From Methanolinea sp. (GTDB lineage Archaea; Halobacteriota; Methanomicrobia; Methanomicrobiales; Methanospirillaceae), in contig JADFCY010000001.1 of assembly GCA_018263335.1 (NCBI GenBank), positions 1-64,000 on the forward strand: a DNA stretch of 64,000 nt. The letters run 5' to 3'. Under the pieces are notes generated by a model, which searched no databases, was not told the origin of the DNA, and worked only from the letters and a program-made list of their open reading frames with translations. The position numbers were made by a program, and so were the translations under genes. Shown here piece after piece: positions 5,049 to 23,323 of this stretch. Positions within the stretch are counted from its first letter, which is position 1. Each line of letters begins with the position of its first letter.

Positions 5049-5165
5049 CAGCACTTCTGGATAGTGCTGGCAGATGTAAGTCCGACGTGCGGCAACGCAC
5101 GGGCCGGGGTCGTTCCCAGGCCTATGGGATTACGGAGAGTCAGCGTGACTCTTTTCGGATTTACA
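5049..5165 (+). ncRNA. Structured RNA or 5' leader before ribosomal protein S15p
   Basis: The untranslated stretch folds into a compact set of helices seen directly in the sequence. Hairpin 1 pairs CAGCACT (5049-5055) with AGTGCTG (5063-5069). A 10-pair closing helix joins TGTAAGTCCG (5075-5084) to CGGATTTACA (5156-5165) with one G-U pair. Inside it are three hairpins: CGTGCG/CGCACG with a GCAA tetraloop (5086-5101), GGCCGGG/CCC-A-GGCC (5102-5122), and AGAGTCA/TGACTCT with a GCG triloop (5136-5152). The ribosome binding site at 5177-5183 lies just outside. It may be an autoregulatory leader or a processed independent RNA; I recognise no known class. Confidence 0.6.
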
Positions 5166-17799: not shown

Positions 17800-19137
17800 T
17801 CACATTATGGGGGTCAGGATGATGAGGGGCGGCGTCGTGGTCTTTCCGGCCTCGATCGTCACGGTCCTGACCTGGGTCTTGTATCCCTGTTTCATGAGTT
17901 TCAGTTCGTAATCGCCGGGGGAGAGCCCACTTATCGTGGCCGGGCTTGTCCCCCTTACCTGGTTATTCAGGTAAATCGTGACACCGCGTGGAACGGTGTT
18001 GATTGCGAGCGCCCCGGTCTGCCCTGTCGGGGTGGTCGCGGTTGTCACGACCGTGGTCGCCGTTGTCGTCGCGGTCGTTGTCGTGGTCGCCGTGGCAGTC
18101 GGCGTGGGTGAGACGCTCGTGCTCGGGGTTGGCGAAGCGGTCTGGGTCGGGGTAGTTCCCGGGACCCCTCTCTGGAGGATGACCAACGGGAGCTGGAGGT
18201 GGCTTCCTGACGCGATGTTCACGCTCGTTGTGTAGTCGGCGTATCCCGGCATGCTGATCTTGAGGGTGTGAGTGCCCGGGCTCAGCCGGTATCCCATCAG
18301 GGGGGTGACGCCGACCCCGGTTCCATCGATGGTTGCCGTTGCCTTGAGCGGGAACGAGAAGACGCTGATGTAGCCGGGGTCCGCGGGCGGCGCAGATGTG
18401 GCAGTGGTAGTGGTGGCGGTGGTCGCCGTTGTTGCCGTCGTGGCAGTGGTAGTGGTGGCGGTGGTCGCCGTTGTTGCCGTCGTGGCAGTTGTTGTGGTGG
18501 CGGTGGTCGCCGTTGTTGCCGTCGTGGCAGTTGTTGTGGTGGCAGTGGTCGCCGTTGTCGCCGTCGTAGCAGTTGTTGTGGTGGCAGTGGTCGCCGTGGT
18601 CGCCGTCGTGGCAGTTGTTGTGGTGGCGGTGGTCGCCGTTGTCGCCGTCGTTACCGTGGGTGGAGCGCCGATTATGATGGTCCCAGGAACAGTGGTGGCG
18701 GTCATCTTATTTCCACTCCCGTCCTGGAGTGTTTTGATGGTGATGTTCACCTCGGTCTGGCCTACGGCATCACCCCTGATACGGAGTGTGGCGAGCGTCA
18801 CATTCGTCTGTCCCGAGTTCACCTGGTATCCAAAAATTCGTATCCCCACTTCATCAGCCGGGGTGGTACTGAACCACGAAAAAGGATAACTGGGTGCCCA
18901 TGCCGGGAAGAGAACATCCATAATCTCGGCCTTCGAAGGCTCGGTCAATACTGCGTCGAGACTGTATCCCAGCAATCCATCCGGGAACTCATCCGCGACA
19001 ATCGGGAAATCACGGGTCTCCCCGATTGTCGGGATAGTGCCCCCTTCGGCGGTTATCGTGGTCGCCTGCACGGCTGAAAAGACTGCCCCTGCTAAAAGAA
19101 TGAGTGCAATCAATTTCATGGTCGAACGGTAAGTCAT
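17800..19137 (-). CDS. Secreted cohesin-like protein with Thr-rich linker and two PEGA domains
   Basis: Encodes about 445 residues. A signal peptide (LIALILLAGAVFSAVQA) is followed by a cohesin-like domain (about 25-150, with DGLLGYSLDAVL and GQTNVTLATLRIRG). Then comes a low-complexity linker of six perfect 14-residue units ATTATTATTATTTT, a PEGA domain (GYISVFSFPLKATATIDG), a second Thr/Pro-rich linker, and a final PEGA domain (GALAINTVPRGVTIYLN). The ATG at 19137 is preceded by AGGAGG. No membrane anchor is visible at the C-terminus. It lies 40 bases after the dockerin-bearing gene in the same operon. The cohesin assignment rests on pattern, not on a search. Confidence 0.75.
   Translation of the reverse strand: MTYRSTMKLIALILLAGAVFSAVQATTITAEGGTIPTIGETRDFPIVADEFPDGLLGYSLDAVLTEPSKAEIMDVLFPAWAPSYPFSWFSTTPADEVGIRIFGYQVNSGQTNVTLATLRIRGDAVGQTEVNITIKTLQDGSGNKMTATTVPGTIIIGAPPTVTTATTATTATTTTATTATTATTATTTTATTATTATTATTTTATTATTATTATTTTATTATTATTATTTTATTATTATTATTTTATSAPPADPGYISVFSFPLKATATIDGTGVGVTPLMGYRLSPGTHTLKISMPGYADYTTSVNIASGSHLQLPLVILQRGVPGTTPTQTASPTPSTSVSPTPTATATTTTTATTTATTVVTTATTPTGQTGALAINTVPRGVTIYLNNQVRGTSPATISGLSPGDYELKLMKQGYKTQVRTVTIEAGKTTTPPLIILTPIM
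18398..18649. repeat. Six tandem 42-bp repeats encoding a Thr/Ala linker
   Basis: Six adjacent 42-base units, each beginning GTGGCAG or GTAGCAG on the plus strand, differ at only a few third-codon positions. They encode six identical 14-residue units in the minus-strand protein. Synonymous differences with identical protein units point to selection on the linker or to repeat turnover. Confidence 0.9.
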
Positions 19138-19177
19138 TTTCTTCCTCCTCTCTTCATTCTGCTCTAAAAAATTTTTA

Positions 19178-22100
19178 TTACGGGACCTCCAGGAACAGCA
19201 GGACAAGGTCATCAAAGCCAAGCCACCCATTCCCGTTATAGTCAAAGAGAGCGATCGGCTGGCCCGGTTCGCTCATCCAGTTGTCGAATAGCAGGAAGAA
19301 CAGCACGACATCCACGAAATCAATATCGCCGCTTCCATTCAGGTCCCAGTAGACCCCATCGTGATAGGGGGCGGTAGGTGGTCCGTATATCGGCCAGTCT
19401 TCTGTTGGCGGGAACTGCTGAAGCAGGACAATCTCAACATCGGCAGGGGTTGATTGTGTCTGGATGTTGTCTTCCGTGTCTGCCTGCATCAGTTCGACCG
19501 TGACATTAATGGTCGTCGATCCAGGCACATAGCCTGTGGCATTGAATGTGGCAAGGGTCACATTGGTTGCCCCGGGTTTGATCGCATCAGGCACGTCCGC
19601 GACGCGGAGCCACACTGATGAGCCGGGCACTGTGCTGTTCCTGGTCCAAGTGGGATCAGCCCAAGACGGCGGGTTCATCTCGACGAACTGGGCTGCGGCG
19701 GGGTTTGCAAAGTATACCGTGATGTTGTAGATGCCGAGCCCCTGATCGAACTTCTCAGCCTCGAGCCTCACCTGGGTGGTTGAATTGGTCGGGATGAGGA
19801 ACGATGACGGGACGAAGTAGAGATTGGTGTAAAACACGTTTCCGGATACCTGGATGTACCTGGAGCGGGTTAGGGTATTCGTCCCATACTCGTTTCCGAC
19901 AGTGAGGGCGACCGTGAAGTTCCCTGAATTATTGTATGTATGGTTTACGGGCATCATGGTCGTGTTCTGGGTCCTGTCGAGAATCGTGCCATCCCCAAAG
20001 TCCCACTTCCACCACTCGGGGTAACCGGTGGACCAGTCAGTGAAGTTGACAAGGTCACCCTCTATGACATTGGTGTTATCTGCAGTGAAGTTGGCGACCG
20101 GTAACTCCCCCACGCGTACGAAATCGGTCTTCGACATGGTATCATTGCCGTACAGGTTGAACACAGTGAGGTTGACCGTATAGTTCCCCTTCGCCAGGAA
20201 CGTATGGTTCGCGTTCCTCTGGGCCGGGACCGTCGTATTGAACCATTCGACCGCTGTTGTGTTGTCAAAGCTCCAGTTCCACGCGGTGATATTGGGGATT
20301 CCAAACGAGAGATCTGTGAAGACCACGTTGAGCGGTACCACTCCGAACCTCGGGGTCGCATTCGTGAAGTTTGCGATCGGGACATCGCCTGCTTCGACAA
20401 GGAAGTATTTCGTCGTGCTGTTGAACCCGTACTCGTTGGTCACGTTCAGGCTCACGTTGTAGAGACCTGGGATATGATAAGTCCAGTTGGGATGCTGGTC
20501 GATGCTGAAGTTCCCGTCGCCGAAACTATAGTTCCATGAGAGCGGGGTATCGTTCGTCAGGTCGGTGAAGTTCACATCGAAGGGCACTTGACCCTGGCAG
20601 AATGCACATTCCACATCGGACACGTTCGCCGAGAAGTTTACGATCAGGGGCACACCCACGTCGATGTAGAATGGTTTGCTCGTGGAATTCGTCCCTTCGA
20701 GGTTGCTGACCGTCAGGTTCACGGTATAATTCCCAGTGGTATACGTGTGGTTGGGGTGCTGCAGGGTCGACGTGGTGTTGTCTCCAAAGAGCCACTCCCA
20801 TGCCGTTGGTTCGCCCGTCGAGAGATCGGTGAAGTTGACGAGAAGCGGGGGCAGTCCCTTGATCAGGGTGTAGTTTTCCACGCCGTTTGCCTCGGCGGTG
20901 AAGTTGGCAACCGGCGGAATGGATGCGATCCGTGCGACAAACGCGTCATAGACCATGTTGAAGTTCGGCTGCACTTCATTCTTCACCGGGAAGTCAGGCG
21001 ACATCGTGAACCCGGCCACAGTCGCATTCGCACCGTGCAGGGCAATTCCCATGGCGCGGTCTTCCAGTTTCCCGCCGAGGTACGTGGAGAACATGAGGGC
21101 AGTACCGTTCGGGTAGAACCGGGTGACGAAGGCGTCGTATGGCCAGCCGTTCAGGTTTCCGTAAATGGCATTCTTGGTCGGGTAATTCCATGAGTCAGTG
21201 AAACCCGTGATGAATATTGAACCGCTGCCGTCGACCGCGATTCCCGTGCCCTCATCGACCTGGCTTCCTCCGATATATGTGGAGAAGTTGAGCAGATTCC
21301 CGGCGGGCTCGAACTTGGTGAGGAATGCGTCCTGTGGACCGTAAATGAAGTTCTGGAATGCGTTCTTAATGGGGAACTCAAGGTTTGACGTCGTGAAGCC
21401 GGTCACATATATGTATCCGTTGTCATCTACTGCAATGCCATATCCTGCCTCGTTGTCACGGCCGCCGAGGTAGGTGGAAGATGACAGGCCGGTTACCCCA
21501 GATAAAAAGTGCGTGACGAATGCATCCTGGTCACCACGCAGGTTCGCCCTGTAGGGATTGGCGGTGGGAAAATTGGGAGATCGCGTCATGCCGGTAACAT
21601 AAATATCATCGTTGCTTCCCATTGCGATCCCATAGCCCCGATCCGCACCTGCTCCCCCGAGGAATGTGGAAAAGGCAATGGATGATAGGGTTCCGTCGAA
21701 CGAAATTCCAGTGACAAAGGCATCGATGGTCCCGTTGATGGTGGGGAACAGTGCCGATTGATTGGGGAAGTCCCAGGAGCCGGTGTACCCGGTCAGAACG
21801 GGTGAGTCAGTGCTGTCGAGCGCAATTGCCTGGCCGATATCGGTCATATTGCCGCCAAGATATGAAGAATACAATGCGCCGTTCCCCCAGGGATAGAGGA
21901 CCGTAATGAACGCATCCGCATCTGCGCACGGGTAACAATAACCCCCACCGCTCTTGTTGGTCTGGAATTCATTCAATACAGGAAAATTATGTGAAAGAGT
22001 GTACCCCGTCACATACGCATACCCTGAACTGTTGACCGCGATTCCATGCCCGCAGTCGTCATTGTATCCGCCAATATAGGTGGTATAATTGAGGACTGTC

Positions 22101-23017
22101 CCGGATGGCTCGAATTTCGTGACGAATACGTCCAGGTTCCCGGAGTTGAACTCCTGGAATGGCGCCGGCATATCAGCGGGAACCGGGAAGTCGTTCGACC
22201 TCGTGCCTCCTGTCACATACGCGCTGCCCAGTTCATCCACCGCAACCGCATAGGCCTTGTCCTCCCACTTGCCACCTAGGTATGTGGAGAAATCCAGGAA
22301 CGGGTCGATGATCAGGGCATACGCTGGGTCATATGGACCCACGCTGAACCCCACATCCGATTCGCCGAGTATCACGTAGTCACAATCAACGGGTACCTGC
22401 ATCCCATTGATGACCTGGTAACAGACGGGTGGTGCTTCCCGCAGGGTGCCCACTGCAGACTCGACCATAAGCGAACCATCCTCGCCTGTCGCCAGTCCCT
22501 CCTGGCCGGAGTACCGGATTACCACCCCTGAGGGATCGGCTCCGGGTGCAAGTGCAATGTCACGCTTGAGCGTTCCCTGGGTGCCGTAGTAGATGATGTC
22601 AACGCCGGGAAGAATGCCTGCATAGCGTACCTTTCCGAACGTGGGCACCGAGGTGACCCACTGATCAGGGTCGTTGCCGATGAGGAAGTTCGCGGTCCCC
22701 GTGAGCGGATCCTCTCCGGTCACCTCTGTCCCGGCACTCTGCCCTTCGACCGTGATCTCAATCACCGAGGCCGCCTGGTCTTCGGCTGCGGCCCGGACGC
22801 ATACGACTGCATCCCTGGTGAAATAGATGCTATGCCCTGCGGCGTTGGTATGGTAGAGCACCTCTGCAGGCCTCTGCCCCTGGTTCTCGATGAATACGAG
22901 CGGTATCCTGGAGACTTCCACCGTGACCGAATCCGCGGCACATGCCGGCAGCACGGTGAGCGCCAGGAGACCTGCCACAAGAATAAGAGTTGCGGTAAAT
23001 CCTGTCTTTGATCTCAT
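19178..23017 (-). CDS. Giant secreted protein: 7 SBBP blades, PKD domains, cohesin-like domain and dockerin
   Basis: Encodes 1279 residues. After a signal peptide (TLILVAGLLALTVLPACA) comes an N-terminal domain with FIENQGQRP (DUF7948-like). From about residue 242 seven copies of a (S)TYLGG...YVTG unit predict a seven-bladed SBBP beta-propeller. Four PKD-type domains follow (FGDGNFS, FGDGTIL, WNWSFDN). A cohesin-like domain with TNVTLATFNATG precedes a C-terminal dockerin with two calcium loops, DLNGSGDIDFVD and DYNGNGWLGFDD. Many NxT/NxS sequons suggest N-glycosylation. It is probably an extracellular structural or binding protein. An earlier ATG at 23059 would precede the signal. Confidence 0.85.
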   Translation of the reverse strand: MRSKTGFTATLILVAGLLALTVLPACAADSVTVEVSRIPLVFIENQGQRPAEVLYHTNAAGHSIYFTRDAVVCVRAAAEDQAASVIEITVEGQSAGTEVTGEDPLTGTANFLIGNDPDQWVTSVPTFGKVRYAGILPGVDIIYYGTQGTLKRDIALAPGADPSGVVIRYSGQEGLATGEDGSLMVESAVGTLREAPPVCYQVINGMQVPVDCDYVILGESDVGFSVGPYDPAYALIIDPFLDFSTYLGGKWEDKAYAVAVDELGSAYVTGGTRSNDFPVPADMPAPFQEFNSGNLDVFVTKFEPSGTVLNYTTYIGGYNDDCGHGIAVNSSGYAYVTGYTLSHNFPVLNEFQTNKSGGGYCYPCADADAFITVLYPWGNGALYSSYLGGNMTDIGQAIALDSTDSPVLTGYTGSWDFPNQSALFPTINGTIDAFVTGISFDGTLSSIAFSTFLGGAGADRGYGIAMGSNDDIYVTGMTRSPNFPTANPYRANLRGDQDAFVTHFLSGVTGLSSSTYLGGRDNEAGYGIAVDDNGYIYVTGFTTSNLEFPIKNAFQNFIYGPQDAFLTKFEPAGNLLNFSTYIGGSQVDEGTGIAVDGSGSIFITGFTDSWNYPTKNAIYGNLNGWPYDAFVTRFYPNGTALMFSTYLGGKLEDRAMGIALHGANATVAGFTMSPDFPVKNEVQPNFNMVYDAFVARIASIPPVANFTAEANGVENYTLIKGLPPLLVNFTDLSTGEPTAWEWLFGDNTTSTLQHPNHTYTTGNYTVNLTVSNLEGTNSTSKPFYIDVGVPLIVNFSANVSDVECAFCQGQVPFDVNFTDLTNDTPLSWNYSFGDGNFSIDQHPNWTYHIPGLYNVSLNVTNEYGFNSTTKYFLVEAGDVPIANFTNATPRFGVVPLNVVFTDLSFGIPNITAWNWSFDNTTAVEWFNTTVPAQRNANHTFLAKGNYTVNLTVFNLYGNDTMSKTDFVRVGELPVANFTADNTNVIEGDLVNFTDWSTGYPEWWKWDFGDGTILDRTQNTTMMPVNHTYNNSGNFTVALTVGNEYGTNTLTRSRYIQVSGNVFYTNLYFVPSSFLIPTNSTTQVRLEAEKFDQGLGIYNITVYFANPAAAQFVEMNPPSWADPTWTRNSTVPGSSVWLRVADVPDAIKPGATNVTLATFNATGYVPGSTTINVTVELMQADTEDNIQTQSTPADVEIVLLQQFPPTEDWPIYGPPTAPYHDGVYWDLNGSGDIDFVDVVLFFLLFDNWMSEPGQPIALFDYNGNGWLGFDDLVLLFLEVP

Positions 23018-23323
23018 GAGTTCCCACTCCCACCTTAACACCGGTTGCCTGCTGACCATGGGGGAGCCACAGAACCCTGCCTCGAGGATGCCACGCAGTA
23101 CTGGCTCAGGTACGCCATGATCCAGGATCTCATGCCCCGGTGAGAAACCTTAAGTTCTGATCAGATACTTATAAAAAAACCCTCTATTTGAATGGTTATA
23201 AATGTTTCCCTGAAATTTCGCATTTTCCCGGCCATTTTGGCAGGTACGGACGCTTGGTCCCGTATCACCCTCCCATTTCCTATCCGCACGCCTTATGTTT
23301 CTTTCCATCCAATCGTTACGGGT
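23018..23323. promoter_or_regulatory. Divergent promoter region between the dockerin protein and the next gene
   Basis: These 306 bases hold no gene. Two TATA-like boxes lie close together, ACTTATAAAAAA (23167-23178, readable on the minus strand as TTTTTTATAAGT) and GGTTATAAATG (23189-23199, plus strand). If used, the minus-strand mRNA has a leader of about 120 bases and the plus-strand mRNA one of about 100, longer than usual here. No obvious hairpin is seen. Confidence 0.45.

Follow-up and report, generated by a model that had tools for sequence, protein, structure and literature searches.

The locus analysed here raises the question of whether two neighbouring genes of a Methanolinea genome, both encoding secreted proteins with a cohesin-like domain and one of them a C-terminal dockerin as well, specify partners that dock on one another at the cell surface rather than in a cellulosome. 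Both genes are on the - strand of the window, by which we mean the whole 64,000-nucleotide stretch of DNA that was analysed, as are all of their features described below. Open reading frames, start codons and signal peptides confirmed the positions that a preliminary description had assigned to the two genes. Gene 1 (19178..23017) encodes a protein of 1279 aa. Its best start is at 23017, with a signal peptide beginning MRSKTGF; a longer version starting at 23059 is less likely because the extra residues precede a clear signal peptide. Gene 2 (17800..19137) encodes a protein of 445 aa and lies downstream, separated from the gene 1 stop codon by a gap of 40 bp, and its ATG at 19137 is preceded by a GAGGAGG ribosome-binding site. 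The signal peptide of gene 1 comprises aa 1-28 (22934..23017), in which the most hydrophobic 19-residue stretch is at aa 9-28, and that of gene 2 comprises aa 1-24 (19066..19137), with a hydrophobic stretch at aa 5-28. Since the C-terminus of gene 1 is 93% identical in Methanoregulaceae archaeon PtaB.Bin056, the nearest relative among named genomes, and since 19 of the 20 family genomes tested have the two genes side by side with strand and order unchanged, we conclude that neither is a chance open reading frame. The gene past gene 2, which runs towards it, reads by inspection like hypF. Scans for bacterial-type promoters and terminators scored little above shuffled sequence, archaeal promoters being outside the reach of these scans.

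Domain searches bore out the beta-propeller and PKD domains of the preliminary description, which had missed DUF7948 and PEGA. In gene 1 the signal peptide is followed by DUF7948 (aa 42-239, 22301..22894; Pfam E 2.4e-55), an SBBP beta-propeller region with five repeats (aa ~240-712, 20882..22300, outer limits approximate; Pfam E 3.5e-30), four PKD domains (aa ~715-1055, 19853..20875, limits approximate; Pfam PKD_4 and PKD in four stretches, E 1.9e-47), a first cohesin domain (cohesin 1; aa 1061-1206, 19400..19837) and the dockerin (aa 1210-1279, 19181..19390). In gene 2 the cohesin domain (cohesin 2; aa 25-157, 18667..19065) directly follows the signal peptide. It is carried on a long Thr/Ala linker, encoded by a tandem array of six 42-bp copies (18398..18651; 95% matches by TRF), and beyond the linker a Thr-rich spacer separates two PEGA domains (aa ~255-316 and 375-435, 17833..18375, limits of the first approximate; Pfam E 1.1e-27 in two stretches). 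PEGA takes its name from proteins on the cell surface of Methanosarcina and of other prokaryotes (PMC2447325). Inspection for hydrophobic stretches found no C-terminal membrane helix in the gene 2 protein. The type of repeat in the gene 2 linker differs among relatives.

The preliminary description had proposed a cohesin-like domain in each protein and had named the lack of a predicted cohesin fold as the finding that would speak against it. The Pfam Cohesin profile (PF00963) remained below threshold on both domains and had zero matches in the host genome, although it matched 9 of 40 cohesin 2 homologues (best 1.4e-5). Because searching the solved structures by sequence with our cohesin profiles returned spurious weak matches only and were therefore uninformative, fold comparison was needed. 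AlphaFold models, for which the inputs were sequences from the window and from retrieved loci only, reached a pLDDT of 96.4 for cohesin 2, which is all-beta, and of 93.4 for cohesin 1 modelled together with the dockerin. When these models were compared with the PDB by Foldseek, cohesin 2 matched 6KGF (E 4e-10) and the non-cellulosomal cohesin of A. fulgidus, 2XDH (1.5e-9), which had the highest identity in the cohesin 2 list at 19%. The cohesin 1-dockerin model likewise matched 6KGF (1.4e-9) and 2XDH (1.4e-8). The best matches were all cohesins, namely the top 39 for cohesin 2 and the top 40 for cohesin 1. In a profile-profile comparison the two domains were homologous to one another (hhalign E 1.9e-37). 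The predicted cohesin fold is thus supported for both domains, and the original proposal stands. In a tree with few columns and some long branches, cohesin 1 and cohesin 2 intermix by lineage, which rules out that the two represent two ancient families.

Two calcium loops had also been noted at the C-terminus of gene 1, and motif matching located them as DLNGSGDIDFVD (aa 1225-1236, 19310..19345) and DYNGNGWLGFDD (aa 1259-1270, 19208..19243). Among 52 relatives, most of the calcium ligand positions of both loops are invariant or nearly so, with invariant D, N, G and D columns in the first loop and D, N and D columns in the second. Position 9 of the second loop is Gly in the window dockerin and Asp in nearly all relatives. 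Judged from these residues, both loops would be expected to bind calcium. The cohesin 1-dockerin model contains helices at 174-183 and 208-216, giving two loop-helix repeats as in type I dockerins. Pfam Dockerin_1 (PF00404) was absent from the window copy at E values up to 1 and was matched by 13 of 14 close homologues and by 43 of 52 wider relatives of the gene 1 C-terminus (best 1.2e-7). Our dockerin profile aligned with the dockerin-bearing chains 5LXV and 2YIK, and its best PDB matches by E-value were generic EF-hand proteins. Any duplicated calcium loop would be expected to give such matches, which are not decisive alone. Identification as a dockerin is favoured because the domain is C-terminal in a secreted protein and lies beside both a cohesin domain and a cohesin gene.

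A precedent for this arrangement is the non-cellulosomal cohesin and dockerin of A. fulgidus ORF2376 and ORF2375, which, according to two later papers that cite the work, were reported in 1999 under a title calling them an enigmatic vestige and were subsequently characterized by strong binding and a crystal structure (cited in PMC9705933, PMC9012536). One of these papers places the dockerin at aa 432-506 of ORF2375 and the cohesin at aa 29-162 of ORF2376 and describes their binding as strong and specific (PMC9705933). As in the window, the genes are adjacently numbered, the protein with the C-terminal dockerin comes first and the second has its cohesin just past the signal peptide, at nearly the same place as aa 25-157 of gene 2. 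The window cohesin models match the A. fulgidus structure 2XDH, with a sequence identity of just 15-19%. Unlike the A. fulgidus pair, as far as it is known, the window pair carries DUF7948, SBBP and PKD modules as passengers and PEGA on the partner. The window pair therefore joins the A. fulgidus-type family, and its kind is already known, whereas these passenger modules were not described in the literature examined. The suggestion that such an assembly is little described did not hold, as the A. fulgidus pair dates from 1999, archaeal non-cellulosomal cohesins and dockerins were surveyed in 2009 (cited in PMC9012536), and large sets from ANME archaea have been published (PMC5244752, PMC9012536).

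We consider it likely that the two genes encode a non-cellulosomal cohesin-dockerin pair of the ORF2375/ORF2376 type, in which the dockerin docks on the neighbouring surface cohesin and thereby displays its passenger. Both proteins would be exported by way of their signal peptides. The gene 1 dockerin would fold around two ions, presumably calcium, and plug into the N-terminal cohesin of gene 2, which probably serves as a cell-surface receptor, given its position on an extended Thr/Ala stalk that bears PEGA domains. The DUF7948, propeller and PKD array would then be displayed as a passenger, probably for adhesion or contact with a matrix. The cohesin of gene 1 may act as a further socket of much the same kind and accept the dockerin of another protein, so that short chains could form. 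We infer docking and surface retention from the A. fulgidus precedent and from the anchor-like partner cohesins of other loci, 14 in haloarchaea and one on contig 22 of the same genome. The Gly at position 9 of the second calcium loop, the sub-threshold Pfam Cohesin scores and the 19 of 55 related loci that have no cohesin gene as the next gene downstream count against this reading. Anchorage of the gene 2 protein itself would, by analogy, depend on PEGA, and its retention is the weakest step of the mechanism because the PEGA end lacks a helix. Taken together, a surface assembly is a plausible reading of the pair.

In the host genome, which was examined by targeted searches only, cohesin-like domains (six) and dockerin-like domains (three) are encoded at three places. 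One of these, on contig 22 (L153:3281-12760), is a second cohesin-dockerin cassette of three proteins. The first, of 1068 aa, has a calcineurin-like phosphoesterase, PKD, a cohesin and a dockerin, and another, of 1718 aa, has a molybdopterin-binding-like domain, a cohesin, PKD and a dockerin. Last in the cassette is a cohesin protein of 269 aa that carries a hydrophobic helix at its C-terminus, and the presence of this membrane-anchored cohesin in a sister cassette favours surface docking. Contig 16 encodes a cohesin-PEGA-PKD protein that has no dockerin. The preliminary description had stated that the assembly includes no glycoside hydrolase and no catalytic module. The first part was upheld for the window pair and, in Pfam searches, for each of the three dockerin proteins identified in the genome. 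The second is true of the window pair but not of the system as a whole, given the phosphoesterase of the contig 22 cassette and the subtilase or PhoX modules carried by related loci.

The order of the two genes recurs widely. In 36 of 55 archaeal loci the next gene downstream of the cohesin-dockerin gene is a cohesin gene, against 0 of 52 with one immediately upstream, these being the loci with enough flanking DNA; they were collected with dockerin patterns and do not form an unbiased sample, so only the contrast between upstream and downstream is used. The other 19 of the 55 have no cohesin gene directly downstream. Several loci (L116, L128 and L130) have a single cohesin gene preceded by two or three dockerin-only genes. 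Relatives in a scan of GTDB genomes came from Methanolinea, other Methanoregulaceae, ANME-2, Methanophagales, Archaeoglobaceae, Methanoperedenaceae, haloarchaea and Thermoproteaceae. With single-domain matches counted, the cohesin-dockerin profile matched 91 of 296 sampled genomes of the phylum, from 49 of 115 genera, so that a cohesin or dockerin is matched in about one genome in three of this sample. The A. fulgidus arrangement is thus an ordered two-gene cassette that has been kept in many archaea.

Several other explanations use the same modules. That the pair is a cellulosome, or the remnant of one, used for polysaccharide breakdown has next to no probability in our judgement. The module families are the same, and the cohesin fold and double calcium-loop dockerin resemble those of the type I clostridial cellulosome. 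However, the multi-cohesin scaffoldin and the dockerin-bearing glycoside hydrolase of that system were not found by the targeted searches of the host genome, in which each of the six cohesins is on a separate protein and all three dockerin proteins are without a glycoside hydrolase domain. The domains might also be structural only, with no docking at all: the cohesin folds would be spacers of an Ig-like kind, and the double calcium loop would cap the C-terminus and be stabilised by calcium. The poor Pfam scores of both kinds of domain would be consistent with this idea, as would the generic EF-hand proteins that head the dockerin matches in the PDB. We nevertheless regard it as quite improbable, since the A. 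fulgidus pair, for which binding was demonstrated experimentally, has the same gene layout, and since dockerin-only genes occur upstream of cohesin genes.

The remaining alternatives concern the identity of the dockerin's partner. With cohesins and dockerins at three places in the genome, the gene 1 dockerin could bind the cohesins of contig 22 or contig 16 while the local cohesin receives the dockerins encoded elsewhere, yet the adjacency and order of the local pair are strongly conserved and we think such a network across loci unlikely, if slightly less so than a purely structural role. A somewhat better but still minor chance attaches to a head-to-tail polymer, in which the main partner of the dockerin is cohesin 1 on a further copy of the gene 1 protein and the gene 2 cohesin only caps or anchors the chain; this would be compatible with the docking pair that we favour. 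Cohesin and dockerin occur in tandem at 64 places in the retrieved loci. In ANME and Archaeoglobaceae loci, cohesin 1 and its local cohesin 2 share 59-75% identity, so that both should accept a single dockerin; in the tree, they also cluster by lineage. In A. fulgidus, a 2011 study reportedly found that the single dockerin was bound by both cohesins of the organism. The two window cohesins are just 25% identical and their partners may differ; a shared dockerin partner is therefore more plausible in ANME and Archaeoglobaceae than in the window. Moreover, polymerisation would compete with docking onto the neighbouring cohesin. Dockerin distances correlated with those of cohesin 1 (Spearman 0.78) and of cohesin 2 (0.54-0.64), but these values do not identify the partner because cohesin 1 and the dockerin share a gene and the comparison was made without a background tree.

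ANME genomes contain large cohesin and dockerin sets for which adhesion or partner contact has been proposed (PMC5244752, PMC9012536), and cohesins and dockerins are also present in syntrophic sulfate reducers (PMC10553843). The ANME-1 and ANME-2 domains are of the same family, and the two-gene layout is also seen in ANME-2 (L075) and Methanophagales (L092) loci. In contrast to the six single cohesins of our host, copies number in the tens in ANME archaea, which also possess scaffoldin-like proteins containing as many as five cohesins (PMC9012536). Haloarchaeal cassettes (L095, L096, L107 and others) have the same order, with the cohesin protein directly downstream. Unlike gene 2, 14 haloarchaeal partner cohesins end in a C-terminal hydrophobic helix, and one haloarchaeal passenger is a PhoX phosphatase. 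A literature search that reached few subscription journals found no paper on the haloarchaeal cases and no published statement of the gene-order rule. Tentatively, and with more doubt than confidence, we suggest that tandem cohesin-dockerin C-termini with a downstream cohesin anchor constitute a surface assembly that is general in archaea and needs no scaffoldin: each passenger would link to the next by its own cohesin, and the chain would terminate at the anchor. Its users would be methanogens, ANME, Archaeoglobaceae, haloarchaea and some Thermoproteota, with the window pair as its PEGA version. Because the cassette is kept so widely, the role of non-cellulosomal cohesin-dockerin contacts at the surface can be tested with short recombinant domains, both in methanogens and in tractable haloarchaea.

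Several individual loci are of interest in their own right. A Haloarcula cohesin-dockerin protein (L095:3901-6597) carries the PhoX alkaline phosphatase, and the next gene encodes a cohesin with a C-terminal hydrophobic helix. In a Methanoperedenaceae protein (L079:1267-6615), four Pfam S-layer stretches precede a C-terminal cohesin-dockerin tandem, an arrangement that would place the docking system in the S-layer itself. Elsewhere in the window, an S15-Methanomicrobia ribosomal protein leader (Rfam RF03137) at 5050-5133 fits an origin in the Methanomicrobia. Finally, contigs of Candidatus Bipolaricaulota and another bacterial contig (L113:5137-6552, L123 and L125) encode small cohesin-dockerin-cohesin-dockerin proteins, and these single chains are possibly a self-linking unit.
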